From Desulfovibrionaceae bacterium (GTDB taxonomy: Bacteria; Desulfobacterota; Desulfovibrionia; Desulfovibrionales; Desulfovibrionaceae): a DNA stretch of 50,038 nt. The DNA lies in contig JAFTDR010000078.1 in assembly GCA_017454105.1 (NCBI GenBank), positions 1 through 50,038 on the forward strand, written 5' to 3'. The position numbers were made by a program, and so were the translations under genes. The notes under the pieces were generated by a model. That model was not told where the DNA came from. It saw only the letters and a program-made list of their open reading frames with translations, and ran no database searches. This document shows positions 4,962-45,506 of the stretch, piece by piece (positions within the stretch are counted from its first letter, which is position 1; every line of letters starts with the position of its first letter).

Positions 4962-5147
4962 ATGATCGCTCAATACCAGTGGCACTCGAACCTCACGTTC
5001 AGAGAGATACTGGAGAAGGTGCCGATCAGGCGCCTCTACGACTATTATTGGCGCTATCTCCAGGAGGCGCGCTCCATGGATGGGCTGGACCGGGTGTGCC
5101 TCTATCCGGCTTTTATGGAATACCAAAGATTCCATTTTCAGAAATAA
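4962..5147 (+). CDS. short hypothetical protein, possibly phage-derived
   Basis: A 61-aa frame starting MIAQYQWHSNLTFREILEKV with believable amphipathic helices (PIRRLYDYYWRYLQEARSM) and a charged, Tyr/Trp-rich composition unlike the junk frames around it. An in-frame stop lies just upstream, so the start is bounded. It overlaps the 3' end of the convergent Fic gene by 35 bases. The size and composition recall small phage tail-assembly proteins, but I recognise no family. It may be a fragment. Confidence 0.35.
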   Translation: MIAQYQWHSNLTFREILEKVPIRRLYDYYWRYLQEARSMDGLDRVCLYPAFMEYQRFHFQK

Positions 5148-7851: not shown

Positions 7852-7890
7852 AAAAAATAAACGGACTCCCTTCCGACAAAGGAATCCGTT
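7852..7890 (-). terminator. terminator of second tRNA-Met
   Basis: On the minus strand AACGGA...TCCGTT arms (7890-7885 and 7865-7860) with an inner imperfect stem are followed by TATTTTTTT. It lies 9 bases beyond the tRNA. Confidence 0.65.
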
Positions 7891-7899
7891 CATGCACTA

Positions 7900-7976
7900 T
7901 GGTAGCAAGGGGGGGACTTGAACCCTCGACCTTACGGGTATGAACCGTGCGCTCTAACCAACTGAGCTACCTTGCC
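7900..7976 (-). tRNA. tRNA-Met (CAT), copy 2
   Basis: Identical over all 77 bases to the copy at 7159-7235, including the T-stem mismatch and encoded CCA. It sits 73 bases downstream of livF in the same direction, so it could also be reached by read-through from the liv operon; a TATACA element lies just upstream. Confidence 0.9.
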
Positions 7977-8049
7977 GTCAAAGAATGTATACAAAAGCGC
8001 CTGCCTTGGCAAGGCTTTTTTTTCACTTTTCTAAAAAAAATGCGCCATC

Positions 8050-16204: not shown

Positions 16205-16384
16205 ATGGCTTCCGAAGAATCCTTGATCGCGTTTGAAACAAAAAGCCTTTCGGCAAGATTCCTCGCTGAAAGAGACGCAGGCCTCGCAAACATTAATACG
16301 CTTCTTGAAACGCAGCAGATCCTCTCTAAACGAAGCATACACAAAGCCTCTCAGACCTGCAGCCTATTCCTCAGTTCACCGTAG
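16205..16384 (+). CDS. possible 59-aa protein
   Basis: A short frame starting MASEESLIAFETKSLSARFL with balanced, helix-friendly composition and GAGGGCG about 7 bases upstream. It overlaps the 3' end of the convergent 402-aa gene by 34 bases. No family is recognised, and the opposite strand is open over much of the same stretch, so this may be chance. Confidence 0.25.
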   Translation: MASEESLIAFETKSLSARFLAERDAGLANINTLLETQQILSKRSIHKASQTCSLFLSSP

Positions 16385-17559: not shown

Positions 17560-20500
17560 GAGTTGCCTTCTCCTTTGAGGGCTCTTGCCAGATACCGGTC
17601 AAGCCAGACCTGTTGGCCGCTTGTGCGCAAAACCTTCAGGCTGATCAAGGTATCCAAAAGCTGGGTTTTCTTCTCATCACTTTGGAAGGCCTCACTTTCA
17701 CCCAGCCACTGCCACACATCATCGCGCGAAAACGCCTCGCTGCTGACCTCGCGGCCGAAACGGACAACAAGATCTTTGACCTCACTATCATCTGGAAGAC
17801 AGAAATCACTTTCGAGAAAATCACAGACTGGCAAATGCTCACTGCGCAAAACCCGCTCAATAAGATATGCCCAGCCACCTGTCTCCTCAATTGTTTTCAG
17901 CGAATCAATCCCAGGCACGCCCTTCTCCTTGCACCAGAATTCAAGCCCTTCGCTTGTCCACGGCTCAAGCTCCAGCTGATAGCTTGAAAAGCGCTCAGCA
18001 AGCCCTGTCCGAATGCATTCATAGAGACAGTTCGGATGGAGAAGACAGACGATTTTTACGACTTTCTTGGCATTCGAGAGCCCGACGAGCCAGGCGTCTG
18101 CAGCCTCGATAAAGGCTCCGGTCGCCGCGATATCCCGGGAGGAAATCCAGAAAATGAGACTGCCCTTCTCTCTCTTCTCATATTCGGCCCGCATCTTGGC
18201 AGAGACTTCGGCAACGCTTGCGCCTTGGAGATGGATGATGCGCGCCTTGATTTCAGATGCAATGCGCTCAAGAGCCCCTGGAACAGAAGAGAGGCCCAAG
18301 GCATCCGAACCGGACACCCAATACAGGCTGCTTCCCCGCTCAATTAAACGATTGTGCTGCGAGGCCACAAAGGGCTCAAAACCGGGCTGTCTTCGCTCAT
18401 CTGGATTGCCGCTTGGCCGGTACTCCTTTGTCTGGTAGGGATCAAGGCGCATGTAGATCGAATCCTCGCCACCCAAAAGCTCAACAATGTTCGGCGTCCG
18501 TAACCGATACTGGCCGCCAAGCGAAATCACAAGACCGAGTCCCTCCATTTCATGGAGAAGACTGCGCAGAACATTGTGGATATCGCAGATCTCGCTATTC
18601 TTCTCAAAGGCCGCCGGCCAAAAATAGCGCAGTTCGTCAAGCAGCTGATTCAGACTGAAACCGCGTCCATGGTTAATGGCCATAGCGTAGCCTATGACAA
18701 GATAGCGCTCATCCAAATTGAGAGTCATCTCAAAACACTCAAGAATCTTTTTCTTCAGATCGTGGGACTCGTAGATTTTGAGAATGGTCTCCTTATCGAT
18801 TGTGTGGAACGGTTCACGGTCTGTCCTGTCATTTAAGGCCCGCACAAGTTCGCTGCAGAAAATCTGAATCAGTTTCGGCTGGTAATTGCAGTGGTTCAGA
18901 GCCATCTGCACAAGCTGATCGTTTGCAAACTCTAGCCCCAAGATGGCGGTCGGCTTGCGCATAAGATCATTCGCCGCTTCTGGAGAGAGCGGACCGATGC
19001 ACAAAGGCTCGCCAAAGTGGTAGAGGGGATTATTGGGAATCTGGCTAAAACGCTGCACAGAGTGCAGGCCGGTAAAGACCACCTTGAACCGGCGGTTTGT
19101 CTCCTGCATGAGATTCCTAAACCGCGCCGCATCGAGAAAATCTCTGCGCGCGTCGGCCTCAAGCGCCTTGTCGCACTCATCGAGCAAAAGGAGGATGCGC
19201 ATATCCAGATGCTCGGCAAGCCAAGCCAAGACACCTTGGGCAAATGTGTCAAGCTGTGTTGACACATCCACAATCCCAGCCTTCCTGCATTCCGCAAGGG
19301 CGACCTCAAGCAAGGAGGACTCAGAAGGCGTCATTGAGTGCAAAAGCACGTTGACTCCTGGATTGGGACGCCTTGCTATCTGCTGCAGAAGCGCGCTTTT
19401 ACCGAGTTGTCTGCCGCCATAAATGATGCAGGGCCCCTCAGGAGCCGTGACTGCGCGAATATCCTCTTCTCTGCCGAAAAAGATCTCCCTGGGCACGCTT
19501 CCCGCCATATTGGGCATATAGGGATTGATCGGGGAGCCAGCCAGGGCAACGCGGAAGAGGACATCCGTACGGACTTCCTGTTTCTGTTTCGTCAGAAAGT
19601 TCATCAGATTTGTGTCGACAATCAGAGGAGCCATGCGCAGACTCGCGCAGAAGCCAAGAAGCTTCTTGCGGTCAAGCCAGTTAAATGCCGTAAAACAGAG
19701 AATCGTCACAGCATCGCTCGACTCAAAATGGCTACTTATCAGAAGCTGATTGATATCCTCAGGCTGCACATCCCAGCCAAGAGCAATAAGATGCCTGTTC
19801 TGACAGCTTCCCCACTGCGGAATAGGACCGGCTATTTCCATTGTGAACTGAATGACGCGCCAGAAATTCGGGCTTCCGGTATTGTAGACGCTCTTCGCTT
19901 GCTCGGTCTGATCCAAAGTAAAACCGAGCCAGCGCAGAAGCCTGGTCACAATAGCCACTTCCTTCGGGGAAGAGAGCGGCTTGTTGCGCAAAAAACGCTT
20001 CGCCTCAGACCAGACAGGCTCGACGATCTCACTTGGGAAAGCGTCATTGCGCAAAAGATCGTAGAAGTCATGCGCCGCTGTTGCCTCGGATGCCGGTGGC
20101 CCTGTGACACTTCTAAGCGCCTTGCCAGAAATAAGATGCTCCTCGACATCGACAATATCGGCCCAGGCCGAATTGTACATGCCAAGCCGCAAATGCTCGG
20201 AACACACTGTCTCAAGCCGCTCCCTGGCCTCTTTGGATATATCTTTCTGTCCGAGCAACTCGTCAATGCGTGAGCGCACCTCAGCCTTCCTTTCCGCATC
20301 GCACTGCATAAGCTCGCGCTCAATTTTCTTAAGCTCACGCACGCCTGTGGCCTTGTCGTTCCGGCTCTTCCCGTAGCGCGCCCAAATATCCTCAAGACGG
20401 CTGTTGTACTGGCTCTGCTGCGAAAAATGGAGGACACTGCGGAAACCGTATTCGCTCACAAGACCGCGCACCGCATCAAAGGTCTCTGAAAAGCGTACAG

Positions 20501-23500
20501 AAAAGTCCTTCTGGCAGTAGACGAAAAATTCTCTAAGCGTCGGTGGCTCCCTGCCCTGAAAGCGCGGGGCAAAATCAGCGAGCTTCGCCAGATCAAGGAG
20601 ACATGTCTCATATTCTGAAAAAACACTGAGGAATTTTTCACACGCATCCAGCTCGCCCCGCACCATATGCAAGGCAAGTGTTTCAGCAACTGCGTTCTTT
20701 TCCCTTCTGCTCTCGTCGGATTGCCAGGCAATAAACATATCCAGGGTTTTCGGGCTGGTCCGCAAGAGAAAAGGAAGACGCAGAGGCCAAAGATCAATAA
20801 GAGCCCTCAAATCGCGTGGCTCGGCTGGCAAGGCCCTGTTCGGGCACTCGGAGAGCTCAATCCAGGTCTGCAAAAAGAGCCGCCCCTCAGGAAATTCGCT
20901 AAGCTTCCCTATGTCCGCCTCAATAGTTGAGAAAAGTTCCCTTAGGCTTGCGACAGCATAGGATTGCTCCCCATCGCCAAGAGTATTTTCCGCAAGACTG
21001 AAATCCTGCCATTTCTTAAGCAGCGCAAAGGCCTCCGCGATGCTCTCAAGCAATTTCTTGCGCGGGTATTCGACTATTTTCTTTGTCTTCGGATACGTCC
21101 TGCAATTGTGGATGATCTTTTCTGGATCAAAGGCATACTCGTTAATGCACTCAGACAGGCCTGAAAAATCGCGCTCAATGCACCGCTCAAAGACACTGCC
21201 AAGTATTCCTTTTTCACTAAATAGCTCAAGCCGGATCTTGCGCGCCGCGACATCGGGCATCTTGCCGTTCTGTACGCGTTCAAGGAAAGCAAGACTCGCT
21301 GCTCGTAAGGATTCATAGAGCATCCGCCTGTGTTTCTCAGCGTCCCGCCCAACAAAGACCTGCGCCTCAACGGCATTGCCGCGCACGATAAACTGCGTGA
21401 GCCTGCGCAAAAAAGGCGTGCAGGCGTATTCTGATAAGCGGCTTGCAAGAGAGCCGACAAGGGTCGCCATATTGAGATCCGGCATCATAAGCGATGGACG
21501 CAGCAGGGCCGCGGCAAGAAGAAGGCATTGCCGCGTGTCGAGATCCTCAATCCGTATAATGGCCTCACTGCAGAGTTCCGCAATGCGGGCTGTGCAGAGA
21601 GAGTCGGGCAGAAGATGAAGACCTAAATGCAGAAGCTCGCAAAGCCAAAGAGGAGACGGCGCCCTGCTGCCTGCGACACGCGTAAGCCAGTAGAGAGCGC
21701 AGGTGTCCCCAGAATAGACAAGAGAGAGGTACGAGGCCTGTATGGCTTCTGTGGGGAGCTTCAAATCAAGAGGACGCGCGTTTGCAGACAGGTCTTTCTT
21801 CCCGCAATCCTGTACGCCCTTATCCACCACCTCTTCTACTTCCGTACCTACTCCTTTATCTACTCCTTTCTCCGCGCCCTCCTCACAAACCGTGCTTTCA
21901 GCTCTTCCCCCAGCCCTCTCATCCGCCTGATCGGACACTTCCAAAGAAGAACGCCCATCGCAGCCACGCTTTCCGTTTTCGGCCTCCTTGCGCACAAGCT
22001 TTTCCCACAAAGGACCGGTTTCGGACGAACGCAGAGAGGCCGGAGTACTTTCAAAGGGCAGTGCCCGCTGCGCGGCCTGCCGGCTCTCCAAGGCAAGCTT
22101 TTTCTTCACCTGCCCCGTATCCTCTTCCTTAGCCTCTCCCTTGTTCTCTTCCGTATCTTTTCCTTGATCCTGCCCCGCACTTTCTCTCGGAGCCTCATCC
22201 TTCGCTTCTTCCCTATCCTCTCTCTTCTGTTGCTTGTTTTCTCCCGTATCCTGTCTCTTCTCTTCCCGCGTCTCCTGTACTCTCTCTTCTCCCTTAGGCT
22301 CTTCCTTGGATTCTTCTTTGGCCTTTCTCTTGGCCGCTTCTTTCTCCTCTCGCTTCTTCTTTTGCTTGTTTTCTCCTTTCTCTTCTCTCTTATCTTCTTT
22401 TTTGGCCTGTCCCTTGCCTTCTCTCTTCTTCTCTTGCTTGTTCTCTTCCGTAGCCTGTCCCGTACTTTCTCCCTTCTCCTCTTCTTGCTTTGTAGTCTTT
22501 CCTTTGTCCTCTGCTCTCTTTTTCACGCCCTTTGCCTGCAGGGCCTGTGGCAGTGCGTACACGCCCTGCGCAAGATTTTGGACAAAATAATAGGAGTAGC
22601 GCTTACGCATCATCTCGCTAAACTCTTCTGGCGACTGCGCATCCTTCTCTTTTCGCAAGATCGGAAAAATGCTTGTAAAGAGCGGGGAATCACGGCGCGC
22701 AAGCGTTCCCAATCGTAAGGCATCCACCTCAGCCTCGGCCGACTTTCTGTCGTACTCCTCAAGCGGCGGCTCGATTGCCAAAATAAGCGCAAGAAGAGTT
22801 TCGGGGTCTGAGGAGAGCGGAAGTCTTGGCTCATACCATGCGCGCAGCTCCTCAAGAATTTGCGTGAATTTCTCCGTGACATAGCACAGAATTTCGCGAA
22901 CAGTCTTGTTTGCGCATGAAAGAAGCGAATGGATAGCCTCCTCTTGCGCAAAACGCTGGCATAGCGCAAAGCATTTTCTGACCTCGGCCTGAAAATGTTT
23001 GCGTTTCATAAGAAAGTGAATCAGGGCTTTGTCCAGGCTTTCAAAACTCTCGTCCGACTCTCGCAAAGCCATGCGATCCGCAAGATCCGTGTATAAGCTT
23101 TTGTAGATAGGATAGTGTTCATCACGCAAACAGAGCAAAACGGAGACAATGCGGAAAAAAAAGACCGTGCCGCCTAAAAAATCCTTAAGCTCTTGCTCGT
23201 TTTTTTCCGAATACTCCTCAAAGAAATTGTCTGGGAGACGATCGACAAGCTGCGGAAAACCGCAGCGCGCGCAAACATAGTAGGAGAGGATCGCCCATTC
23301 AAGCGCTGTGAAGGACTCTTCCCCGCATACAATGATGTCGCGGACAATAAGCTCGCTTGCCAGGCCAACCACGTACTGCTGGCTTGCGTGTTTTAACACC
23401 ATCCGTCTGATAGCTAGGCGTTTTGACTCAGGCGTCTTTGCGACTGCACTCCCAAGTTTCAACATTATGGGTTGGCAAATTTTTGTGCTGACAATTTTTT

Positions 23501-23654
23501 TTCTCTCGAAGGGATCCTCGTCAGGCCTAATGAAACTGTTTGATACGAGCAGATCAATGATATAGGTATTGCGCTCGCGCCAGACAGCCTTGGCAAGAGC
23601 CTTCGGATAGTCAATATCACAGTTCGTTGAGACCATCTTCTCGTATGTCGCCAT
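17556..23654 (-). CDS. giant STAND-like P-loop ATPase, 2032 aa
   Basis: The first 370 residues are helical and unassigned. A Lys/Glu/Gln-rich low-complexity linker spans about 375-520. A long helical region runs to about 1380. An AAA/STAND-type NTPase module follows: Walker A GGRQLGKSALL (Lys1419), Walker B ILLLLDECDKA (Asp1492, Glu1493), then RRFKVVFTGLHSVQRFSQIP near 1525 and GPLSPEAA. A winged-helix-like segment lies near 1655-1730. About 300 C-terminal residues have no assignment. STAND NTPases act as switches that sense a ligand and release an effector, often in phage defence; that role is inference here. The gene starts 9 bases after hypE, with GAGGG overlapping the hypE stop region, and overlaps the 402-aa gene. 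No signal peptide is present, so it should be cytoplasmic. Confidence 0.75.
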   Translation of the reverse strand: MATYEKMVSTNCDIDYPKALAKAVWRERNTYIIDLLVSNSFIRPDEDPFERKKIVSTKICQPIMLKLGSAVAKTPESKRLAIRRMVLKHASQQYVVGLASELIVRDIIVCGEESFTALEWAILSYYVCARCGFPQLVDRLPDNFFEEYSEKNEQELKDFLGGTVFFFRIVSVLLCLRDEHYPIYKSLYTDLADRMALRESDESFESLDKALIHFLMKRKHFQAEVRKCFALCQRFAQEEAIHSLLSCANKTVREILCYVTEKFTQILEELRAWYEPRLPLSSDPETLLALILAIEPPLEEYDRKSAEAEVDALRLGTLARRDSPLFTSIFPILRKEKDAQSPEEFSEMMRKRYSYYFVQNLAQGVYALPQALQAKGVKKRAEDKGKTTKQEEEKGESTGQATEENKQEKKREGKGQAKKEDKREEKGENKQKKKREEKEAAKRKAKEESKEEPKGEERVQETREEKRQDTGENKQQKREDREEAKDEAPRESAGQDQGKDTEENKGEAKEEDTGQVKKKLALESRQAAQRALPFESTPASLRSSETGPLWEKLVRKEAENGKRGCDGRSSLEVSDQADERAGGRAESTVCEEGAEKGVDKGVGTEVEEVVDKGVQDCGKKDLSANARPLDLKLPTEAIQASYLSLVYSGDTCALYWLTRVAGSRAPSPLWLCELLHLGLHLLPDSLCTARIAELCSEAIIRIEDLDTRQCLLLAAALLRPSLMMPDLNMATLVGSLASRLSEYACTPFLRRLTQFIVRGNAVEAQVFVGRDAEKHRRMLYESLRAASLAFLERVQNGKMPDVAARKIRLELFSEKGILGSVFERCIERDFSGLSECINEYAFDPEKIIHNCRTYPKTKKIVEYPRKKLLESIAEAFALLKKWQDFSLAENTLGDGEQSYAVASLRELFSTIEADIGKLSEFPEGRLFLQTWIELSECPNRALPAEPRDLRALIDLWPLRLPFLLRTSPKTLDMFIAWQSDESRREKNAVAETLALHMVRGELDACEKFLSVFSEYETCLLDLAKLADFAPRFQGREPPTLREFFVYCQKDFSVRFSETFDAVRGLVSEYGFRSVLHFSQQSQYNSRLEDIWARYGKSRNDKATGVRELKKIERELMQCDAERKAEVRSRIDELLGQKDISKEARERLETVCSEHLRLGMYNSAWADIVDVEEHLISGKALRSVTGPPASEATAAHDFYDLLRNDAFPSEIVEPVWSEAKRFLRNKPLSSPKEVAIVTRLLRWLGFTLDQTEQAKSVYNTGSPNFWRVIQFTMEIAGPIPQWGSCQNRHLIALGWDVQPEDINQLLISSHFESSDAVTILCFTAFNWLDRKKLLGFCASLRMAPLIVDTNLMNFLTKQKQEVRTDVLFRVALAGSPINPYMPNMAGSVPREIFFGREEDIRAVTAPEGPCIIYGGRQLGKSALLQQIARRPNPGVNVLLHSMTPSESSLLEVALAECRKAGIVDVSTQLDTFAQGVLAWLAEHLDMRILLLLDECDKALEADARRDFLDAARFRNLMQETNRRFKVVFTGLHSVQRFSQIPNNPLYHFGEPLCIGPLSPEAANDLMRKPTAILGLEFANDQLVQMALNHCNYQPKLIQIFCSELVRALNDRTDREPFHTIDKETILKIYESHDLKKKILECFEMTLNLDERYLVIGYAMAINHGRGFSLNQLLDELRYFWPAAFEKNSEICDIHNVLRSLLHEMEGLGLVISLGGQYRLRTPNIVELLGGEDSIYMRLDPYQTKEYRPSGNPDERRQPGFEPFVASQHNRLIERGSSLYWVSGSDALGLSSVPGALERIASEIKARIIHLQGASVAEVSAKMRAEYEKREKGSLIFWISSRDIAATGAFIEAADAWLVGLSNAKKVVKIVCLLHPNCLYECIRTGLAERFSSYQLELEPWTSEGLEFWCKEKGVPGIDSLKTIEETGGWAYLIERVLRSEHLPVCDFLESDFCLPDDSEVKDLVVRFGREVSSEAFSRDDVWQWLGESEAFQSDEKKTQLLDTLISLKVLRTSGQQVWLDRYLARALKGEGNS

Positions 23655-29365: not shown

Positions 29366-30244
29366 TCATCCGAGCTCGAGATGGCGGTGTTCGAGCGATG
29401 TGGGATACGCCTGCTCACGCAAATAGTTCGCGAGCGCGACAGCAAAAGCGACCGACCTATGCCGCCCTCCTGTGCAGCCGAGCGCAATTGTCACGCGGTA
29501 GCGTCCTTCAGCCTCCATGAGAGGCAGAAGAAAAGCCAGAAGATCCGTGAGTTTATCCCTGTAGATCTGGGCGTCTTTCTCGGCGAAAACATAGTCCGAG
29601 ACAGCCGGATCCATACCGCTCAACGGACGAAGAGATTCGACAAAATAGGGATTGGGCAAAAAACGAAGATCAAAGACCATATCGGCTTCCCGCGGCACGC
29701 CGTACTTGAAACCGAAGGAGACAACATTGACGCGAAGGACGCGCTGCCTGTTTTCGCGGGAGCGGAATCGCTGCTGAATTGTTCTGCGCAGATCATGAAT
29801 GGAATAGGCCGTTGTGTCCACAACAAGATCCGCCTGCTCCTTTACGGAATCAAGACGCATTTTCTCGGCAACAATCGCGGCCTCAAGCCCCATGCCCTCC
29901 TTTTCAAGCGGATGCGGCCGCCGCGTCTGGGCATAGCGCTGAATAAGAATCGAAACATCCGCTGTCACGAAGATCACAAAGGGCCTGATATCCTTTTTCG
30001 CAAGTGTCTCAAGAGTTCGCGCTATCTCCTCCTTGAAACCACTCTGGCGTATGTCCATACCAAGCGCAATTCCCGCGAAATGCGCCATGGACGGCCGGCG
30101 CATCATTGCGATCATATCGGGCGCAAGGCTTGCCGGAAGCCCATCCACTGTAAAAAAGCGGAGATCTTCGAACACTCTAAGTGCCGTACTCTTTCCGGCA
30201 CCGGAAAGTCCTGTGACAATACAAACGGAAAGAGATTCTTTCAT
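29366..30244 (-). CDS. rapZ: RapZ, RNA-binding P-loop protein
   Basis: RapZ (292 aa) in enterobacteria senses glucosamine-6-phosphate and steers an sRNA to RNase E; its role here is unproven. The N-terminal Walker A GLSGAGKST is intact, and the C-terminal sensor domain has DLRFLPNPYF and the ligand-site stretch GCTGGRHRSV. The start at 30244 (MKESLSVC) is chosen because GGGGGA precedes it by the normal distance; ATG 30256 and a longer frame are less likely. It follows the RapZ-RpoN fusion by 19 bases. Compared with the fusion protein, this copy keeps all key residues. Confidence 0.93.
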   Translation of the reverse strand: MKESLSVCIVTGLSGAGKSTALRVFEDLRFFTVDGLPASLAPDMIAMMRRPSMAHFAGIALGMDIRQSGFKEEIARTLETLAKKDIRPFVIFVTADVSILIQRYAQTRRPHPLEKEGMGLEAAIVAEKMRLDSVKEQADLVVDTTAYSIHDLRRTIQQRFRSRENRQRVLRVNVVSFGFKYGVPREADMVFDLRFLPNPYFVESLRPLSGMDPAVSDYVFAEKDAQIYRDKLTDLLAFLLPLMEAEGRYRVTIALGCTGGRHRSVAFAVALANYLREQAYPTSLEHRHLELG

Positions 30245-30263
30245 CCTGTCCCCCATGCAAGAC

Positions 30264-32327
30264 TCAGCGGACCCTGCGTCCAGAAGAGGAGGCAATGCCG
30301 ATAAGACTGCGGTACTTGGCCACAGTTCTGCGGGCCATCGATGTATGGAGGCGCTCATTCAAAATGGCGGTTAATTCGTCATCACTTAAAGGATGCGCCG
30401 GATCCTCAGATTCTATCAGCTCGCGCAGCATAATCTGCACGCTCACCGAACTCACAATCCGCCCATCATCCGTCTCAAGCCCGCTCGCAAAAAAAGTCTT
30501 CATCGGAAAAAGGCCGAAGGAAGTCGCAATCGTGTGCTTGACCGTGACCCTGCTCACTGTCGACTCATCCCTGCCTGTATCCGAGGCGACACGGCTCAAA
30601 GTCAAAGGGACGATCTGCATGGGCCCACTCTGAAAAAAAGCTCTCTGCAGACGCACAAGACTTTCAGCCACAAGATAGATGCTCTGTGAGCGCGGATCCA
30701 GGCTGGCAAACCAAGATGTGCGCTCCTCTGTCGTGTCCAAAAAGACATCGCGGGCACAGGGTTTGCCTTGTCCGCGCAATCGGACGACAAAGCGGCCGTT
30801 CACAGAACGCACCGAGACATCCGCAAGAGACTCCCAAAACGTGAAACATGGCCTTGGGGCAAGCGCCGCAAGAATGTCGAGTATGGCAGGGGAATCGAGA
30901 GAGGCCGCACGCGCAGCTGTATACAAAGCGTGAAAGTTTCCCCCAAGAATGTCCTCGACATGCTCATCCACAAAAGAATAGAGCGTGGAATCCCGGCTAT
31001 AGCCACGGTCTTTCACCTGCACAAGCAGACATTCCCTGGCATCCTTTGTGGCCGATCCGATCGGATCAAAATGCTGAATGCGCTCAAGAACAGGCACGAC
31101 TTCCAAAACCGGACGCTTTGTCCTCACGGCCATTTCCTCAACACCACCCGGCAGATAGCCCTCAGAGTTTATGTGATCGAGAATGACCTCTCCGATTATC
31201 CGCGCGGAATCCGTGCAGAAGGTCTTGTCGAGCTGCTCTTTAAGGTATTGCCGAAGCGTCTTCGCTGTCTGCTGATCGGCGCTTTTTGTCCCAGACGTCT
31301 GACCGGACATTTGAAAGGATGCGGCCGTATCCTGATCCTTTGGGTCATTCAGATCGTCTTGGTCATTTGAATGGAGATCCTGCGGATTTTGGTCATTCGG
31401 ATTTTGGTCGTTTGGCTCGCCGCGCTCCCTATCCCTGTGCTTCACAGTGACATCGCAGCCCCGGCGTATGTAGTGGTCCGCAACAGCGAGGGCGAAGGCG
31501 ACAGAGCGGTAGCGTCCGTGAGTACTCCCGAAGGCTATGTGACATTCTCCCTGATTCGCTGCCTTAAGATGCGAAGTATCGGCAAAGCGCGTGAGCAGAT
31601 CGTCTAAGAGGGTTAGGATATGCTCCAAATACTCTTTTGCGCGTCTGTTCGAAAAAAACGTGTCCACAAGCGCTCTGTCATCCTTGCTTGTGTTCTCCTG
31701 GCTTGCGTTCTCCTGGCTTGTGTTCTCCTGGCTATCGCGCTCTCTGTCTCCTGACAAACCGTTGGATAGACCATGAGAAAAATCCAAGGGCAAAAAACGC
31801 AGATCAAGCAGGAAGGCCACATCGTCAGGATAGCCAGATGCGACGCAAAACGATGTGACGCGTATGCGCGGCAACATGTCAGGGCGCGCAAAAAAACTAA
31901 ACAGGCGGCTTCGCAACAATGGCTCTGAGCAGTCGGTCTCAAGTATGCAATCCGCACTGTCGCGAAGCACGCCCAGACAATCAGATGCGTCACGCGCATC
32001 CAGTCCATATCTCCGTGATAAACCAGCCCTCCGTGCGTGCAGAGTATCCTTTGTCTCGAGATAAAAAACAAAGGGATGGAGATTCCTCGCCCTAAGCTCC
32101 ACAAGGACCTTGTGGGAGTCTTTTGCAGAGTTGCCTCGAACATCCAGTCCAAGTACTATTCCCGCACTGTGCGTCAGCATTCCGGGCAACGCAAGCAAAT
32201 CCGGTACCAGGGCCATAGGCAAACCGTCTACGGTGTAATACCCCATTGTCTTAACAATGCTCAGAACCGTGCTTATTTCAGCACCGATCGGCCCAACCAC
32301 TATATACACGGGACATTTTGTTTTCAT
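30264..32327 (-). CDS. RapZ-like / sigma-54 (RpoN) fusion protein
   Basis: This 687-aa chimera joins a degenerate RapZ (residues 1-300) to most of an RpoN (355-687). In the RapZ half the Walker A GLSGAGKST has become GPIGAEIST (Lys lost) and the sensor stretch GCTGGRHRSV has become GSTHGRYRSV. The linker 301-355 is Asn/Asp/Gln-rich (NDQNPNDQNPQD), and there is an insertion SQENTSQENASQENTS at 199-214. The RpoN half has the core-binding region (HFDPIGSATKDARECLLVQV), the HTH (DESTVSRVTVKHTIATSFG) and the RpoN box ARRTVAKYR at 665-673, but lacks the Gln-rich region I needed for activator control. It sits between hpf and rapZ, without a clear ribosome-binding site. No frameshifts are seen over 2 kb, which implies selection. 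Confidence 0.88.
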   Translation of the reverse strand: MKTKCPVYIVVGPIGAEISTVLSIVKTMGYYTVDGLPMALVPDLLALPGMLTHSAGIVLGLDVRGNSAKDSHKVLVELRARNLHPFVFYLETKDTLHARRAGLSRRYGLDARDASDCLGVLRDSADCILETDCSEPLLRSRLFSFFARPDMLPRIRVTSFCVASGYPDDVAFLLDLRFLPLDFSHGLSNGLSGDRERDSQENTSQENASQENTSKDDRALVDTFFSNRRAKEYLEHILTLLDDLLTRFADTSHLKAANQGECHIAFGSTHGRYRSVAFALAVADHYIRRGCDVTVKHRDRERGEPNDQNPNDQNPQDLHSNDQDDLNDPKDQDTAASFQMSGQTSGTKSADQQTAKTLRQYLKEQLDKTFCTDSARIIGEVILDHINSEGYLPGGVEEMAVRTKRPVLEVVPVLERIQHFDPIGSATKDARECLLVQVKDRGYSRDSTLYSFVDEHVEDILGGNFHALYTAARAASLDSPAILDILAALAPRPCFTFWESLADVSVRSVNGRFVVRLRGQGKPCARDVFLDTTEERTSWFASLDPRSQSIYLVAESLVRLQRAFFQSGPMQIVPLTLSRVASDTGRDESTVSRVTVKHTIATSFGLFPMKTFFASGLETDDGRIVSSVSVQIMLRELIESEDPAHPLSDDELTAILNERLHTSMARRTVAKYRSLIGIASSSGRRVR

Positions 32328-32355: not shown

Positions 32356-32895
32356 CTACAAAACAGGATCGATCAAACCATACCCCTGGTTGCGGCGGCG
32401 GTAGACGACATTGATACGGTTTGACTCCGCATTGAAGAAAACAAGAAACTCGCTCCCTATTGCCTCAAGCTGCATCAAAGCCTCGTCAAGAAAAAGCGGT
32501 TTTGTGGCAAAACGGGGGGTGCCGACGACCTTGGGATCGCTCGCCTCCTCGCCGTCAAGGGTGTAGGTGAACACATCCACATCCTTTTCCCTCGCTTTGC
32601 GGCGCTGCTCTTTGACCTTTGAGACACGCTTCTTAATCTGCGATTCCACCTTGTCCGACACAAGATCAATGGCCGCATACATGTCGGGATTCTGCTCACC
32701 AGCATTGATGTGCAGCCCTTCCCCTGTCACAGTCACCTCGCAGCGATAGCGAAACTTGTCCACGGAAAGCACAACGTCAATATCCAAGCCCGAGGCTTTT
32801 CCAAAAAAACGGCTGACCTTGTCCATGCGCCTGCGCGCATACTTCTTCAGATGTTCGGATGCCTCAAAGTTCTTGAACGCAATATTGACATTCAT
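32356..32895 (-). CDS. hpf: long-form ribosome hibernation promoting factor
   Basis: A 179-aa long HPF. The N-terminal domain (1-100) binds the 30S decoding region, and the C-terminal domain (about 120-179, IGSEFLVFFNAESNRINVVYRRRNQGYGLIDP) dimerises to form 100S ribosomes under stress. Both domains look complete. It lies 37 bases after rpoN in the conserved order, so expression follows rpoN. Confidence 0.94.
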   Translation of the reverse strand: MNVNIAFKNFEASEHLKKYARRRMDKVSRFFGKASGLDIDVVLSVDKFRYRCEVTVTGEGLHINAGEQNPDMYAAIDLVSDKVESQIKKRVSKVKEQRRKAREKDVDVFTYTLDGEEASDPKVVGTPRFATKPLFLDEALMQLEAIGSEFLVFFNAESNRINVVYRRRNQGYGLIDPVL

Positions 32896-32932: not shown

Positions 32933-34363
32933 CTACCTTGATCGGCGTTTGGCGGAGGAGGATATGCCAAGCTGGGTCCGATACTTGGCGACCGTCCGTC
33001 GGGCTATTGTCAGATGGAGCCGGGCGTTTAAGGCATTGGCCAGGAGATCGTCGCTTAACGGATGCTCAGGATCCTCGCCTGCGATCATCTCCTTAATCAA
33101 TGCCTTAACGCTCTCGGAACCGACAAGTGTGCCATCTGCCTGCTCAAGGGCACTATTGAAGAAATATTTCAACTCAAACACGCCAAAGGGTGTCGCCACA
33201 TACTTGTTTGTCGTAATGCGGCTCACAGTCGACTCGTGCATCTCAATATCGTCGGCTATGTCCCTAAGAATCAGGGGGACAAGCTTTGTCGGTCCCTCGC
33301 AAAAAAATTCCCGCTGATGCCTGACGATACTCTCCGTCACTTTGTAGAGGGTGCGCTGACGCTGGTAGAGACTGCGTATAAGCCATGTGGCTGAACGTTT
33401 CTTCTGCTCGCAGTATTCCCGCTCGCTCTCCGAGACATTCGCCGGAATATCGTTTTTGGCCAAATCGGACATCTGCAGATTGGGCAGGCCATCCTCATTG
33501 AGCGCAATGACGAAATCGTCGTTCACCTTATAGACATAGACATCTGGACAGATATAGGCCGGCTCCTCGTCCCCAAAACTCGCTCCGGGCATAGGCTCCA
33601 AATCCCGGATGATGGTCAAATATTCGCCAAGATCTTCCATATCCAGGTGAAATTTGCGCAATAAAGGCTTGTAGCGCTTCGCCTCAATATCCTCGAGGTG
33701 TTCTGTCACAAGCGCAACCAGAATGGGATCCCGATCGTATTTTCTGTCCTTAAGCTGAATGAGCAGACACTCCTTCGCATTCCTCGCCGCGACGCCGACC
33801 GGATCAAAGCGCTGTATGTAGCCTAAAACCGTTTCAACAGCCTCAGGGGTCGCTCCGGTCTTTTCAACTATGTCGCCAATCTCCGCCTCAAAATAGCCTG
33901 ACGAGGACAAATTGCCGATAATTTCCTCGCCTATCTTGATCTGCTCCTCTGTGAGCTGAGAAAAATGAAGCTGCCAGAGAAGATGCGCCTCAAGAGTCGG
34001 CTTTGCAGCATAGCGGGCCTCGAACGGAGTAACTTCATCGGAAGACTCTGTTTCCTTGATCTGCTCATGCCGTGAAGCACTGGAAAACTCTCCCAGATAA
34101 TCCTCCCACTGCGCATCTTTCGCGATCTCGCTGTCGTAGACATCGTCGTCATGCGACTCATTGCGCACAACTTCCGGCCCCTGTTCAGGAGGGCCTGCCT
34201 CTGGAATGCGCTCCTCAAGGAAAGGATTCTCAAGTAACTCCTGCTGTATCGTCTCCTGAAGTTCGATACGGGAGAGCTGAAGCAAACGAATTGCCTGCTG
34301 CAGCTGCGGCGTCATCACCATCCGCTGCTGCATTTTCAATTGCTGATGAAGTTCCAACGCCAT
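32933..34363 (-). CDS. rpoN: RNA polymerase sigma-54 factor
   Basis: Full-length sigma-54 (476 aa). The Gln-rich region I is intact (QQLKMQQRMVMTPQLQQAIR) and is followed by an acidic region II. The core-binding domain, the HTH (HESTVSRITTNKYVATPFGV) and the RpoN box ARRTVAKYR near the C-terminus are all present. It directs RNA polymerase to -24/-12 promoters such as the one before flgB at 43274-43289. It is 36 bases downstream of pyrG and heads rpoN-hpf-fusion-rapZ-EIIA. In relatives, kds/lpt genes usually lie between pyrG and rpoN and ptsN after hpf; these are absent here. Confidence 0.96.
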   Translation of the reverse strand: MALELHQQLKMQQRMVMTPQLQQAIRLLQLSRIELQETIQQELLENPFLEERIPEAGPPEQGPEVVRNESHDDDVYDSEIAKDAQWEDYLGEFSSASRHEQIKETESSDEVTPFEARYAAKPTLEAHLLWQLHFSQLTEEQIKIGEEIIGNLSSSGYFEAEIGDIVEKTGATPEAVETVLGYIQRFDPVGVAARNAKECLLIQLKDRKYDRDPILVALVTEHLEDIEAKRYKPLLRKFHLDMEDLGEYLTIIRDLEPMPGASFGDEEPAYICPDVYVYKVNDDFVIALNEDGLPNLQMSDLAKNDIPANVSESEREYCEQKKRSATWLIRSLYQRQRTLYKVTESIVRHQREFFCEGPTKLVPLILRDIADDIEMHESTVSRITTNKYVATPFGVFELKYFFNSALEQADGTLVGSESVKALIKEMIAGEDPEHPLSDDLLANALNARLHLTIARRTVAKYRTQLGISSSAKRRSR

Positions 34364-38367: not shown

Positions 38368-41300
38368 ATGAGTGTGACATATCTCGAAGAGATAAAACAA
38401 CTCGTTGAACTCCAAAAAATAGACGAAGAGTATTTTGAAACAAAAAGGCTCCTCAACCAGATTCCGGAAGAAATCGCGGCCATTCAGCGGAAAAACGAGA
38501 CCCTGCGCCAGCGTAGGGATCATATCCTTGACAAACTCTCCCATCTGAATGATCAAGATAAGCGGCTCACTAAGGAAATTGAGGAAAACGCGGCCCGCAT
38601 TCGAAAAATCCGGGACGAACTTGATACGGAAAATGACCGCGAGTATCAAACGGGACTCTCTGAGATCGATACGATAGAAAAGAACTCCAGTCTGCGGGAA
38701 GACGAAAAAAACCTGCTGACAGATGAACTCACGATGCAGAACAACCTCCTCGATGACGTTGAGCAGGAATACGAAGCAGGCCTGCGCGAGGAAAAAGAAA
38801 AAAAAGACAAGCTCGCGGAGAAGTCGGAGACATACAAGCGGACAATGGAGGAACTGCTCCTTCTCAGGCAGGAGGCGGTCAAACTCATCTCCGAACCAGT
38901 TCTCAAGCGCTACGAATTTATCAGTGAACGACTTGAACACCCAGTGATTGTTGCTGTCCACGACGGCGGTATCTGTAGCGGCTGCCACATCGCAGTTCCC
39001 CCGCAAAATTATATTGAGCTGCAGCGTGGCCAGCAAATCTTAAACTGCCCAAACTGCGAACGACTCATCTTCTGGAGCAACCATTTCGAAGAGGATATTG
39101 AGGCAGACTACGATCAAGACCTTGAAAAAAAATTGCGCATAAAGGCCAAGTCGCGCGAGCGCAGCCAGAAGAATTCCGACGACGATTTCTTTGAACAGGA
39201 CGACATGCACGACGATGTGTACGACGACATGCATGATGATATGGGCGATGATGTTCACGACGATATGCATGACGATATGCATGACGATATAAAGGATGCC
39301 GCAGCAGAGGATGTTATCCTTAACGAGAATGACGTTCCTGAGGTCAAAACACGAAAGAAGCGGGCAAAACCTGCTGCGCAGGAGGCCAATGGCAACGAAG
39401 CGGCGGATGACGCCAAAACCTTAGCATTTGATGAGGATAGCACAGAGACTATGGCAGAGAAGAAAACAAAATTAAAAAAGAAAGTGAAGGAGACGTCTGA
39501 GGTCAGCTCTGAATCGAAAGAGACAGAGGCTCCAGACGAAGCCTCCGTTGACGAGTCCGCCCAAAAGAAAACGCCCACAAAGGCGCAAAAAACAAAGGCA
39601 GAAGCTACAGAAGCTGACGCAAAGAAGAAAACGACGAAGAAGCAAGAGAGTGCCGCGCAGTCAGACGATACAAGTGACGAGGCAGAGGACGCGGCCAAAT
39701 CAAAAAAGAAGGCAGCGCCCAAGAAAAAGACAACGGCCAAGACAGAAGACGGTGCCGCAGACGATGCTGCCAAAGAGGCATCTAAGGACGAAAAGGCTGA
39801 CACAGAAGAGCCCAAGAAAGCCAAGGCGCCGAAAAAATCCTCGAAAAAGTCCTCTAAGGACGAAGAAGACGAGAGCATAGCGGACAGCGAGAGTGCTGAC
39901 GAAAAAGCTGCGGAAGAGCCGGCCAAAAAGACGAAAACTGCCAAGAAATCTTCGAAAAATACTGAAAGCGACGAAAGTGCGGACGAAGGAAAGGCAAAAG
40001 CTGCGAAAAAGTCGTCCCAGAAAAAGTCCAAGGCCGAAGCGGACAGCGAGGAATCCTTTGAGGATGATGCGGCCGAGGTCATAGTGGACGATGAGACTAA
40101 AGACGAGACTCTTGACGAAGAGAGTAGCAAAAAAGCCAAGTCCTCTAAAAAGTCCTCTAAAAAATCCTCAAAGGCCGAGCCCGCACCAAGCGTAGACGAC
40201 GAGAGTGCTGAAGTCATCATTGACGATGACTCTATTGACGATGACTCTGAGGATAAGGCGCAGAAGGTCACGCTCGAAGAGGACAGTACAGAAGAAAGTG
40301 AAGAGGGTGCCAAAAAGGCCAAGTCCTCCAAGAAGTCCTCTAAAAAATCCTCAAAGGCCGAGTCCGCACCAAACGTCGACGATGAGAGTGCTGAGGTCAT
40401 CATTGACGATGAACTGGACGACGAGCAGGCCCAAGAAAAATCTCAAGACAAATCTCAAGACAAATCTCAGGACAAGTCAAAGAAAAGCAAAACCTCAAAG
40501 AAAACCACACAGAAAAAGACCGCCAAAGACGAGGCGAATGACGAGGCCGATGACCATACAGAAGAAGTCGTCCTAGACGACGAGCCGGACGAGAAATCGG
40601 ACTCCGAAGCACAATCTGAAGACAAAGCGAAAAAAGCCAAAACGTCTAAGAAGTCCACCCAGAAAAAGGCGGCCAAAGCTGAGACGGATGACGAGGCGAA
40701 TACAGAAGAACTCGTCCTAGACGATGAGCCGGACGAGGAATCGGACTCCGAAGCACAATCTGAAGACAAAGCGAAAAAAGCCAAAACGCCTAAGAAGTCC
40801 CCCCAGAAAAAGGCGACCAAAGCTGGGACGGATGACGAGAGCGATGAGGACGATGACGAAGTACCAAGCTCCACAAAGCAAAAGGCCAGCAAGAAGTCGT
40901 CCAAAAAGCCTGTCCAAAAAACTGAAGACGATCTCGACGACAATGAGAACGACGGCGAGATCCGTGAGATCATCCTTGAGGACGATGAAGACGAGGACGT
41001 AAGCCCCAAAAAGGACAAGGCTCCGAAAAAAGACGCCAAGAAAGAGACAGCCGATGCGGCGCACGACGAAGAAGACGATGTCGATGGCGCAAAACAGGTA
41101 AAAGCTCCGAAAAAGTCCCCGTCGAAAAAAGCGGCCAAGCAGGAAGAGGACGTTGTCCTCGACAGTGAGGTGGATGAGGACAAAGACGAGGATAGCTCCA
41201 AAAAGAAGGCCTCGAAAAAAGCCTCTCAGAAAAAAGCGACCAAGAAAGACGAAGACGCCGATCCAGAACTTGTCATTGAAGACGAAGCAGACGACGAAGA

Positions 41301-41655
41301 GGACAGTCCAAAGAAGTCAAAGTCAGCGAAAAAAGCCTCTGCCAAAAACGAGAGTCCTGAAAGCGATGAGGACAGCGCTGAGGTGAAGAAAGCCTCTTCA
41401 AAAGCGAAAAAAGACAAAAAATCTGCGAAGACAGAGAAGAAGACAAAGAAAGAGGAGAGCAAGGACACTCTGCCTGACGAGGAGGACGACGCGGAAGACG
41501 AGTGGGGTGACGAGGGCGAAGAACCTCAAAAACCTGCGAAAAAAGGCTCAACTGAGGACGACGACTGGGGTGCAGAGGATTCGGATAAGACCTCCAAGAA
41601 AAAAAAGCCAGCGAAAAAGGCTGCTGAAGACGGGAAGTCTAAGAAGAGTTCGTAA
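38368..41655 (+). CDS. C4 zinc-ribbon coiled-coil protein with giant charged tail
   Basis: Residues 1-240 match the usual bacterial zinc-ribbon (DUF164 / zf-RING_7) protein: a long antiparallel coiled coil, then Cys203-x2-Cys206 and Cys227-x2-Cys230. Family members are normally about 240 aa. Here the frame continues for about 850 more residues with almost only Lys, Ser, Asp, Glu and Ala. First come His-Asp repeats (HDDM, residues 279-307), then repeated modules with KKSSKKSSKAE and acidic DDESAEVIIDD blocks, ending GKSKKSS. Nucleotide-level duplications are seen at about 40130-40230 versus 40310-40410 and 40580-40700 versus 40730-40850. The frame stays open throughout, so the tail is translated. 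It resembles histone-H1-like or nucleolin-like mixed-charge proteins; function unknown. Confidence 0.88.
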   Translation: MSVTYLEEIKQLVELQKIDEEYFETKRLLNQIPEEIAAIQRKNETLRQRRDHILDKLSHLNDQDKRLTKEIEENAARIRKIRDELDTENDREYQTGLSEIDTIEKNSSLREDEKNLLTDELTMQNNLLDDVEQEYEAGLREEKEKKDKLAEKSETYKRTMEELLLLRQEAVKLISEPVLKRYEFISERLEHPVIVAVHDGGICSGCHIAVPPQNYIELQRGQQILNCPNCERLIFWSNHFEEDIEADYDQDLEKKLRIKAKSRERSQKNSDDDFFEQDDMHDDVYDDMHDDMGDDVHDDMHDDMHDDIKDAAAEDVILNENDVPEVKTRKKRAKPAAQEANGNEAADDAKTLAFDEDSTETMAEKKTKLKKKVKETSEVSSESKETEAPDEASVDESAQKKTPTKAQKTKAEATEADAKKKTTKKQESAAQSDDTSDEAEDAAKSKKKAAPKKKTTAKTEDGAADDAAKEASKDEKADTEEPKKAKAPKKSSKKSSKDEEDESIADSESADEKAAEEPAKKTKTAKKSSKNTESDESADEGKAKAAKKSSQKKSKAEADSEESFEDDAAEVIVDDETKDETLDEESSKKAKSSKKSSKKSSKAEPAPSVDDESAEVIIDDDSIDDDSEDKAQKVTLEEDSTEESEEGAKKAKSSKKSSKKSSKAESAPNVDDESAEVIIDDELDDEQAQEKSQDKSQDKSQDKSKKSKTSKKTTQKKTAKDEANDEADDHTEEVVLDDEPDEKSDSEAQSEDKAKKAKTSKKSTQKKAAKAETDDEANTEELVLDDEPDEESDSEAQSEDKAKKAKTPKKSPQKKATKAGTDDESDEDDDEVPSSTKQKASKKSSKKPVQKTEDDLDDNENDGEIREIILEDDEDEDVSPKKDKAPKKDAKKETADAAHDEEDDVDGAKQVKAPKKSPSKKAAKQEEDVVLDSEVDEDKDEDSSKKKASKKASQKKATKKDEDADPELVIEDEADDEEDSPKKSKSAKKASAKNESPESDEDSAEVKKASSKAKKDKKSAKTEKKTKKEESKDTLPDEEDDAEDEWGDEGEEPQKPAKKGSTEDDDWGAEDSDKTSKKKKPAKKAAEDGKSKKSS

Positions 41656-42810: not shown

Positions 42811-43224
42811 CTATGCCTGCTTCCCATCGGTAATAATGGTGTTGATCCCTTCAAAGGACTTTGAAATAACCTGTGTCAGCGCGGAATAATGCAGATTGCA
42901 CTTGGCGAGCTTGGCCATTTCCTTGTCTATGTTGACACGATCCTCGCCGTGAATCTGACGCGGCTTAAGCTGCTTATCCCACTCGGGTCCGAAGGTTTCG
43001 GGATTGAACTGTGTCGGCATATGCCCTTGATTGGTGAGGCTCATGCGCCCGTTCATATCAAGTCCCATTGCCTGCTGCAATTCCTTTTCAAACGTCAGTT
43101 CGCGGGGCTTGTAGTTCGGAGTCTCAATATTCGCAAGATTGCCTGTGATCACATTCTGACGCTGCAACTGCATATCCAAAACTCGACCAACGAGGCCGAT
43201 CTGATTTGCAAATAAGCCTTTCAT
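42811..43224 (-). CDS. flgB: flagellar basal-body rod protein FlgB
   Basis: A 137-aa proximal rod protein with the family pattern (RQNVITGNLANIETPNYKPR near the N-terminus). The start at 43224 (MKGLFANQ) is set by AAGGAGG 8 bases upstream; a frame start 8 codons earlier lies before that site. Transcription comes from the sigma-54 promoter at 43274-43289, fitting early or middle flagellar genes under sigma-54 control. Confidence 0.96.
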   Translation of the reverse strand: MKGLFANQIGLVGRVLDMQLQRQNVITGNLANIETPNYKPRELTFEKELQQAMGLDMNGRMSLTNQGHMPTQFNPETFGPEWDKQLKPRQIHGEDRVNIDKEMAKLAKCNLHYSALTQVISKSFEGINTIITDGKQA

Positions 43225-43273
43225 GGGAAAGCCTCCTTCATACATCACTATTCCTCATGTATACACCCTCTAT

Positions 43274-43289
43274 TGCAAACAGTGTGCCA
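43274..43289 (-). promoter_or_regulatory. sigma-54 promoter of flgBC
   Basis: On the minus strand TGGCACACTGTTTGCA matches the sigma-54 consensus TGGCAC-N5-TTGCA, with GG and GC 10 bases apart. The expected start site is about 38 bases before flgB. It is a likely target of the RpoN encoded at 32933-34363. Confidence 0.88.
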
Positions 43290-43526
43290 GAGAGGGCAAA
43301 TCCCTCACAAGGGCCCTCGCACAAAGGGTATTACGACAATGTCGCCTGCCCAAGGGCGTGTGCGTACAGAGAAGCTGTAGCGAAGGACCGCTAAAAAAAT
43401 GACGCACAATAGAGGTGACTTTTCTCTGAGAGGAGATTCTTGACATATTTCAGTGGAGGCAATACACAATACATTAAATTTTGTGCATTTTTCATCCAAA
43501 CTTTAGATAAGGCTGCTCTCGCATCC

Positions 43527-45506
43527 ATGACTCTACAAACAAAACTCTCCCTATCGATAAGCTGTGCTATCGCGCTTTCTGTGCTTTTTACTGTTTTCTT
43601 AACCTGGAAGCGCGTCAATACATTATCAATACACACTGAAACAAGCGACTTCTCATCTGCGGCCAAAACGCTGGAACACATACTTGAGAGTTCCTTTTTC
43701 GACTACCTGATACATAAAGCTCAGATTGTAATCGAGACAAAGAAAAAAATACAAAGAATCACCATGAACACCTGGAGGGACATCCAATCCGTTGAGCGCA
43801 TCTACCCTCCCTCAGAAAAGCGCGACGAACTGATAACAAGTATTATTAGAGATGGGTATGATCACACGGACAAAACATCCGCCCGTATCTTTCTCACTGA
43901 CGAGCAAACTGTCCTCGAAAAGGGCATTCCAGACCTGCAGATCTCGCCTGACACAAAAAATTCAAAGAACGAGACGATCACAAGTATTATCAAAAGCCTC
44001 AAGCCAAACGGTAAATTTTTCTTGATAGCCGCGTCAGGTGAGCATGATTCCTATAAATTCCTCTATATTCTCCCGTTTACCACGCAGTCCAATCAAATAA
44101 ACAAAGAACCAAAACGCCTGCTCATCTGTGCCCAGCGCCTGGTTACGCTCTTCGACTCAGCCAATCAACTCCTGGAAGACCATTTCAAGCAAGCGCGGCA
44201 AACCATTTCCAATTCTCTTTTTTTCGAGAAATCGCACCTTGTTCTCTATGACAATAGCGACACCCCTCTCGCTCACCAGGGTGAATACAACCCTATACAA
44301 AACGTTTTTCAAGAACTCAAAATTCAAGCAAGGGCTCAGAACTCCGTAACAAAGATAATTGATACAGAACAAGGCGAATTTCTTTGCCACTGCTCCTGGA
44401 TACGCGCCTTTGACTGGTACTTTTTAGCGGCGGCCCCACTTGAGATACTCAAAAAACCCTCCAAGGAACTCATCTCGACCATTACATTCGCAGGGCTTAG
44501 CATCCTCATCATGGCAATAATCACAACGGCGAGCATCCTCACCCGCGCGCTTCAGCCTCTGCAGTACTTAAGCCATTGCGCAAGAAAGCTCGCCTCCCTG
44601 GATCTCTCAAGCCAATCAGGCCTTGCCCAGATGGATGCTCTCCCAAAGGAGAAGCTTCCACTCAACCGAAATGACGAGGTGGGCGATCTCTCAAAAGCAT
44701 TTGCCACCATGAGTCACGAGCTTGCCAATAACATTCGCTCGACTATGCAGGTCATGACAAAGCAGAAACGCGTTGAGGGCGAACTTGCGGCTGCACGCGA
44801 CATCCAGGTGGGCATACTCCCGTCGAGTGAGCCTATCCCCTCAGAGCCCGGCTTTTCAATTGCGGCTTTTCTTGAGCCTGCCAGGGAAGTTGGTGGCGAT
44901 CTGTACGATTGTTTTCCCCTTGCCCAAGGCACAAAAGCCATTGTTATGGGCGATGTCTCAGGAAAAGGCATACCGGCGTCGCTCTTTATGACAATGAGCG
45001 TGACGCTCATCCGCTACGCCTTACGCTCCGAACACTCTCCAGAACTGGCTATGAACCAAGTCAACGCTCTCCTCGAAGAACACAATCCAGGATCCATGTT
45101 TGTGACACTCTTCATGGGGATCTATACGCCAAGTACCGGGGAACTCATCTATGCAAATGGTGGCCACTGTCTGCCAATCATCATGGGCGCTGATGGAGCC
45201 ATTCGCAAACTCACAAATCTGAGCGGACCAATTGTCGGGGCAATGCCCAGCCTGAACTATCAGCTCTACAAGGACGTCCTCGCTCCTGGAGAACTGTGCT
45301 TTCTCTACACTGACGGACTTACGGAAGCCATGAATGACCGCAAAGAACTCTATGGCGAGGAGAGGCTCATCGCCTGCATGGCAAAGCATACAGGACTCAG
45401 TCCGAAAGCATTCCAGGAAGCTATCTTTGAGGATATCTGCGCGTTCCGTGGAAACGAACCGCCCTCAGACGATATAACGATGCTGACAGTCGCCCGAATT
45501 CCATGA
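43527..45506 (+). CDS. membrane PP2C (SpoIIE/RsbU-type) phosphatase with HAMP
   Basis: A 659-aa sensor phosphatase. TM1 (about 8-26), a 310-residue periplasmic sensor region, TM2 (about 345-367), a HAMP segment (LQPLQYLSHCARKLASLDL) and a coiled coil lead to a PP2C-type phosphatase domain (ARDIQVGILP, REVGGDLYDCF, GDVSGKGIPASLFM, YANGGHCLPI, LYTDGLTEA, SDDITMLTV) with the metal-binding Asp residues present. Such proteins dephosphorylate anti-anti-sigma (STAS) proteins in partner-switching pathways. The start at 43527 (MTLQTKLSLSI) gives a normal N-terminus; a TTG at 43440 with GAGGAG upstream is possible, but TTGACA there may instead be a -35 element. A cut-down frame overlaps its stop. Confidence 0.9.
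   Translation: MTLQTKLSLSISCAIALSVLFTVFLTWKRVNTLSIHTETSDFSSAAKTLEHILESSFFDYLIHKAQIVIETKKKIQRITMNTWRDIQSVERIYPPSEKRDELITSIIRDGYDHTDKTSARIFLTDEQTVLEKGIPDLQISPDTKNSKNETITSIIKSLKPNGKFFLIAASGEHDSYKFLYILPFTTQSNQINKEPKRLLICAQRLVTLFDSANQLLEDHFKQARQTISNSLFFEKSHLVLYDNSDTPLAHQGEYNPIQNVFQELKIQARAQNSVTKIIDTEQGEFLCHCSWIRAFDWYFLAAAPLEILKKPSKELISTITFAGLSILIMAIITTASILTRALQPLQYLSHCARKLASLDLSSQSGLAQMDALPKEKLPLNRNDEVGDLSKAFATMSHELANNIRSTMQVMTKQKRVEGELAAARDIQVGILPSSEPIPSEPGFSIAAFLEPAREVGGDLYDCFPLAQGTKAIVMGDVSGKGIPASLFMTMSVTLIRYALRSEHSPELAMNQVNALLEEHNPGSMFVTLFMGIYTPSTGELIYANGGHCLPIIMGADGAIRKLTNLSGPIVGAMPSLNYQLYKDVLAPGELCFLYTDGLTEAMNDRKELYGEERLIACMAKHTGLSPKAFQEAIFEDICAFRGNEPPSDDITMLTVARIP

Follow-up and report, generated by a model that had tools for sequence, protein, structure and literature searches.

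A RapZ-sigma-54 fusion without region I, preserved by selection in a rumen-type Desulfovibrio, as a candidate antagonist of RpoN

A minus-strand gene at 30264-32327 of the window (the whole stretch of 50,038 nucleotides that was analysed) encodes a fusion of a degenerate RapZ with a sigma-54 factor lacking region I. It is an uninterrupted frame of 687 codons from ATG with 0 internal stops, and this frame is preserved by purifying selection. On the evidence of the genomes searched, the fusion is confined to one species, a rumen-type Desulfovibrio. The joint best explanation, which we place slightly short of even odds (about 0.45), is that the gene arose by duplication, that its frame is under selection, and that the protein acts through its RpoN domain as a roadblock or dominant-negative factor at -24/-12 promoters, with the RapZ half as a multimerising scaffold.

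The fusion gene and its locus

RapZ is an RNA regulator whose family binds sRNA and RNase E; the degenerate RapZ half of the fusion comprises residues 1-304 (31416-32327). Pfam recognises RapZ-like_N at residues 7-107 (E 1.1e-9; 38.7 bits, curated cut-off 25.4) and the RapZ C-terminal domain at residues 213-300 (E 8.4e-13; 49 bits, curated cut-off 27). Both scores exceed the curated cut-offs but are far below those of native rapZ. Where sigma-54 would have regions I and II there is a low-complexity linker rich in N, D and Q (residues 305-352, 31272-31415). It is followed by the partly decayed core-binding domain Sigma54_CBD (PF04963, residues 353-520, 30768-31271; E 4e-27, weaker than 8.9e-58 in native rpoN) and by the DNA-binding domain Sigma54_DBD (PF04552, residues 535-685, 30273-30725; E 1.8e-43), which includes the ELH, the HTH and the RpoN domain. 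No Pfam match to Sigma54_AID (region I, PF00309) was observed in the fusion, and region II is not recognisable in it either. When the whole genome was searched, region I turned up only once, in native rpoN. The fusion is present in a single copy in its genome, and its codon pattern is of the coding type (0.115 in frame versus -0.11 and -0.10 in the shifted frames).

Along the minus strand, pyrG, rpoN, hpf, the fusion and rapZ follow one another, and next come a gene for a PTS EIIA-man-type protein and a relA/spoT-type gene. Pfam shows that rpoN (32933-34363) is intact, with region I, CBD and DBD; it lies 606 bp upstream of the fusion start codon. The ribosome hibernation factor gene hpf (32356-32895, identified by Pfam) lies 28 bp before the fusion, and the probable ATG of the intact rapZ (29366-30253), preceded by the Shine-Dalgarno sequence GGGGGA, is 10 bp past the fusion stop. 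With gaps this short, the genes look like one tight operon. These data bear out the sequence-only reading in its description of a RapZ-RpoN chimera without region I, set between hpf and an intact rapZ with an intact rpoN about 0.6 kb away.

The fusion start codon has no Shine-Dalgarno sequence (TGTGTGAACAGAT-ATG), and thus expression may be low. No -24/-12 site with at most two mismatches that could drive the fusion was found just in front of the gene; sites with one mismatch at 32195 and 30752 both fall within it. In the window as a whole there are 47 matches to the -24/-12 pattern versus 54 expected by chance, that is, no excess.

Elsewhere in the window, a gene pair at 16351-23654 (minus strand) encodes a 402-aa protein without a Pfam match and a 2032-aa protein with a weak AAA match. 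PADLOC gave no match for this pair, which is possibly an undescribed defence-type locus. A Fic/DOC-family protein with DUF4172, encoded at 5113-6216 (minus strand), resembles the SoFic defence model.

Distribution and origin

Searches at the level of the genus, family and phylum recovered only native rpoN and rapZ. No other carrier was found among 78 other species of the genus (79 genomes including the present one), in 288 family genomes searched with the RapZ C-terminal family, in 119 family genomes searched with Sigma54_DBD, or in 107 other genomes of the phylum (108 searched including the present one). A tblastn-confirmed scan of genome contigs with the fusion as the query yielded no orthologues. 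In the search of 288 genomes, one (G309) had two RapZ C-terminal family matches at reduced score. The genome G161 has a second, weak Sigma54_DBD match of 54 positions in a 78-aa frame. The longest rpoN-containing frames elsewhere in the family sample are 628 and 601 aa (G199 and G210), and in both genomes the RapZ domain is in a separate frame. The fusion is absent from the four nearest relatives tested (G024, G032, G081, G083), where the gap between hpf and rapZ is 42-46 bp; in the DNA of Desulfovibrio sp. RUI329 hpf leads straight into rapZ. Since no other carrier turned up at any level searched, we consider the fusion, on this evidence, restricted to its species. The search of relatives proposed in the sequence-only reading has thus been made, and the fusion was found in the present genome only.

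By rpoN, the nearest named relatives are Desulfovibrio sp. RUI329 (76%) and Desulfovibrionaceae RGIG3607 (72%). The RGIG3607 contig (L069) is labelled as goat rumen, and RUI329, judging from its isolate name, is a rumen MAG. The hpf-rapZ junction of RGIG3607 lies off its contig, and so this genome is outside the gap comparison. The same contig has an rpoN-hpf gap of 1129 bp (7432-8556) with a 101-aa ORF (7604-7909); the gap is 29-448 bp in the other genus loci measured. The genome carrying the fusion is 4.26 Mb, compared with 2.5-2.9 Mb in the nearest relatives and at most 3.7 Mb in the other listed genomes of the genus.

The RapZ part of the fusion reaches the native C-terminal residue; then come the linker and sigma-54 from approximately residue 113. 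There is good support for an origin in which a unit with one end inside rpoN, behind regions I and II, and the other just past rapZ was duplicated in tandem. Such an event would produce the order rpoN-hpf-[rapZ::'rpoN]-hpf'-rapZ in one step, and the second hpf (hpf') would have been lost afterwards. Taken together, the duplication and this loss account for the gene order, the gene content and the missing region I. In a tree of 78 rows a very long branch connects the fusion to the clade that contains the rpoN of the same genome. The candidate attachment points in the rpoN tree differ by few lnL units: the best is beside the goat rumen MAG L069, followed by the genus stem, L006 and the genome's own rpoN; attachment at the L005 clade does slightly less well, and the outgroup tip L009 alone is clearly inferior.

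Comparable sigma-factor fusions were found only for sigH of Staphylococcus aureus, from laboratory selection; SigH is a sigma-70-type factor, unlike sigma-54. There, short-junction tandem duplications fuse nusG or rplK in frame to a 5'-truncated sigH (PMC3486894). As in the present case, the 5' part of the downstream gene is joined to a 5'-truncated sigma gene, and intact copies lie on either side of the in-frame fusion. However, the nusG'-'sigH and rplK'-'sigH fusions are recent, reversible and laboratory-selected, whereas the fusion described here is old and strongly diverged. No paper on a RapZ-sigma-54 fusion came up when the open literature was searched; the parts are known, and the architecture is new as far as searched.

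Selection and conservation

The sigma and RapZ halves were run separately under a codon model with an own omega for the fusion branch. In the sigma half this omega is 0.16-0.17, with lnL -7276.0 versus -7292.4 at omega = 1 (about 16 units); in the RapZ half it is 0.22, with lnL -6620.5 versus -6632.6 (about 12 units). These branch values are approximate and averaged over time, as dS on the branch is saturated (about 9-10). Omega = 1 is also rejected in each of four sub-segments, by 5.5-11 lnL units. The native values are 0.036 for rpoN and 0.07 for rapZ, and thus the constraint on the sigma half is about 4-5 times relaxed relative to rpoN (0.16 versus 0.036). When neutral evolution was simulated to the same DNA identity (200 runs), the frame acquired 22 stops on average and 11 at the minimum, compared with 0 observed. 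Unconstrained drift gives an amino-acid identity of 20%, versus 39% observed, and the identities to the neighbouring genes by codon position are 0.52, 0.60 and 0.32. These results show that the frame has been preserved by purifying selection. The neutral pattern that would mark a pseudogene, for which the sequence-only reading had suggested a dN/dS analysis, is not seen, nor is the frame broken anywhere in its 687 codons.

In the sigma half, 76% of the near-invariant positions and 19% of the variable ones are kept. The RpoN domain is the best-preserved part (17 of 18 conserved positions), and its RpoN box ARRTVAKYR (30309-30335) is identical letter for letter in the alignment. The ELH and HTH together keep 22 of 32 conserved positions. 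The HTH core ESTVSR (30549-30566) is intact; beside it MH has changed to RD and TNKY to VKHT, and one residue is absent between the equivalents of W328 and R336 in the ELH. The core-binding domain keeps 18 of 25 conserved positions in its N half and 6 of 13 in its C half. Nearly all of the 22 alignment columns deleted in the fusion fall in the connector between CBD and ELH. The fusion therefore resembles native RpoN in the order of its CBD, ELH/HTH and RpoN domains, and differs from it by the loss of region I and of a recognisable region II, by the shorter connector, and by RapZ at the N terminus.

The RapZ half has changed more, with 55% of the near-invariant positions retained. Its Walker A motif G-x-x-G-x-G-K-S/T, GLSGAGKST in the relatives, reads GPIGAEIST (32268-32294), the lysine being replaced. 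The loop of the ligand/RNA pocket, GCTGG(K/R)HRS in general and GCTGGRHRS in the relatives, reads GSTHGRYRS (31503-31529): the positions of E. coli C247, G249 and H252 are changed, those of T248 and R253 are kept (residue roles from PMC9841335 and PMC5737377). In E. coli RapZ, the substitutions H190A, G249W and R253A each abolish activity (PMC9841335). Compared with RapZ/YvcJ, the fusion has both RapZ domains in order, the native C terminus and the predicted fold, but lacks the Walker A lysine, has altered pocket positions and repeat-coded insertions, and carries an appended sigma-54.

The folds predicted for the two halves, which were modelled separately, are those of RapZ and sigma-54, respectively. 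AlphaFold2 gave pLDDT 81 for each half (81.0 for RapZ); the best PDB matches of the models are E. coli RapZ for the RapZ half and, by Foldseek, sigma-54 for the sigma half. The modest whole-chain TM-scores may be ascribed to a flexible arrangement of the domains. Residues 193-209 have pLDDT under 50; here the RapZ C-terminal domain has an SQEN(T/A) insertion, encoded by a 15-bp tandem repeat (31681-31733). Low-complexity growth may be a habit of the lineage, as the repeat-coded insertions of the fusion have a parallel in a CdsZ-type zinc-ribbon protein encoded at 38368-41655 (plus strand; Zn_ribbon_9 at residues 203-233). It has a histone-H1-like tail of about 850 residues rich in K, S, D and E, with tandem repeats (144-bp unit at 40483-40844); the corresponding frames are 315-499 aa in the nearest relatives and 264-296 aa in other congeners.

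A natural degenerate rpoN has been described previously, the rpoN-like sequence of Neisseria (PMC6755734). There, however, the DNA-binding end is damaged and the sequence is the sole rpoN homologue described, whereas the fusion has lost the N-terminal end, keeps the DNA-binding part and lies alongside an intact rpoN.

Possible function

Region I keeps the sigma-54 holoenzyme closed and is the part that receives the activator. The fusion, lacking it, would be unable to respond to activators, and activator-dependent initiation at -24/-12 promoters is predicted to be lost. Through its nearly unaltered RpoN domain the protein would bind such promoters and, being unresponsive to activators, would mainly obstruct them as a roadblock or compete with RpoN in a dominant-negative manner, whether or not core RNA polymerase is bound. 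Deprived of the P-loop and of most of the ligand/RNA pocket, the RapZ half would serve as a scaffold through which the DNA-binding part multimerises, perhaps together with native RapZ as well. The roadblock is favoured because the strongest constraint is on the RpoN domain, the domain that blocks -24 sites in Pseudomonas aeruginosa. There the isolated domain binds -24 sites, represses hundreds of genes and acts as a promoter roadblock in cells (PMC5626770). This RpoN* is, like the fusion, a sigma-54 DNA-binding part without region I, and the same action is proposed here; however, it is an engineered 60-aa peptide without a core-binding domain or RapZ, whereas the fusion is natural.

The genome contains 17 perfect TGGCACN5TTGCW sites, versus 2 for the reversed pattern, and roughly ten full activators, and thus targets for the fusion exist. 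In the window, one perfect -24/-12 promoter, TGGCACACTGTTTGCA (43274-43289, minus strand), immediately precedes a flagellar rod-like gene of 145 aa (42811-43248, minus strand) and exemplifies the native sigma-54 sites that the fusion could act upon. A HAMP-SpoIIE phosphatase gene (43440-45506, plus strand) stands back to back with the rod-like gene. The fusion is a probable competitor of normal sigma-54 at the promoters of the latter. Of the functions suggested in the sequence-only reading, competition with RpoN for -24/-12 promoters fits best, the RpoN-box domain being nearly untouched and the core-binding domain only partly kept. The proposed tuning by a RapZ-derived ligand domain is disfavoured by the replacement of the Walker A lysine and of three pocket-loop positions.

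The same reading allowed that the fusion holoenzyme might initiate at -24/-12 promoters without an enhancer-binding protein. The inhibitory, activator-contacting region I is indeed gone, and the CBD, the ELH with the equivalents of W328 and R336, the HTH and the RpoN box are all recognisable. However, a sigma-54 from which region I has been deleted escapes the need for an activator on pre-melted DNA only, and open complexes themselves depend on region I (PMC2680985, PMC7057263). Together with the unrecognisable region II, the 22 deleted columns, the residue missing between W328 and R336 and the eroded C half of the CBD, this makes a free-running sigma factor very unlikely, and less likely than a competitor or roadblock. 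Another possibility is that the RapZ side matters: a modified RapZ would hetero-oligomerise with native RapZ and regulate it or its RNA targets, and the sigma half would tether it to DNA or RNA polymerase. The shared operon, with the fusion 10 bp upstream of rapZ, and the predicted RapZ fold are consistent with this, as RapZ is a tetramer held by both of its domains (PMC5737377). It is nonetheless doubtful, as decay has gone further in the RapZ half than in the sigma half (55% versus 76% of near-invariant positions kept), with the P-loop and pocket lost.

It is also conceivable that the fusion was functional long after the duplication and is by now hardly expressed or disappearing. Relaxed constraint, low-complexity insertions, the missing Shine-Dalgarno sequence and the lack of the fusion in any relative searched all point in this direction, but we consider it unlikely, given a frame open across all 687 codons, selection still visible in each domain, and a nearly intact RpoN domain. 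An assembly or binning artefact is hardly credible, even though the source is one draft genome of 341 contigs. Between the fusion and its own genome's copies the identity is 37-43% for rpoN and 29-34% for rapZ, and so the assembly collapse that the sequence-only reading had named as a danger cannot explain it; about 60% of the residues differ from both neighbours, which is incompatible with a collapsed repeat. Moreover, the flanks are syntenic genes of the same clade, and GC and codon pattern match the surroundings.

A more tentative suggestion is that RapZ and RpoN have here given rise to a natural, selected, oligomeric sigma-54 antagonist (or an activator-free reader) that occupies or silences -24/-12 promoters. 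If true, this would be a class of regulator in which a sigma-54 without region I is supplied by the cell itself. A region-I-less paralogue with a constrained DNA-binding part beside the intact gene offers a direct test of such a sigma-54 in the cell. The case also indicates that one tandem duplication in the conserved rpoN-hpf-rapZ operon can merge adjacent regulators into a single new protein.
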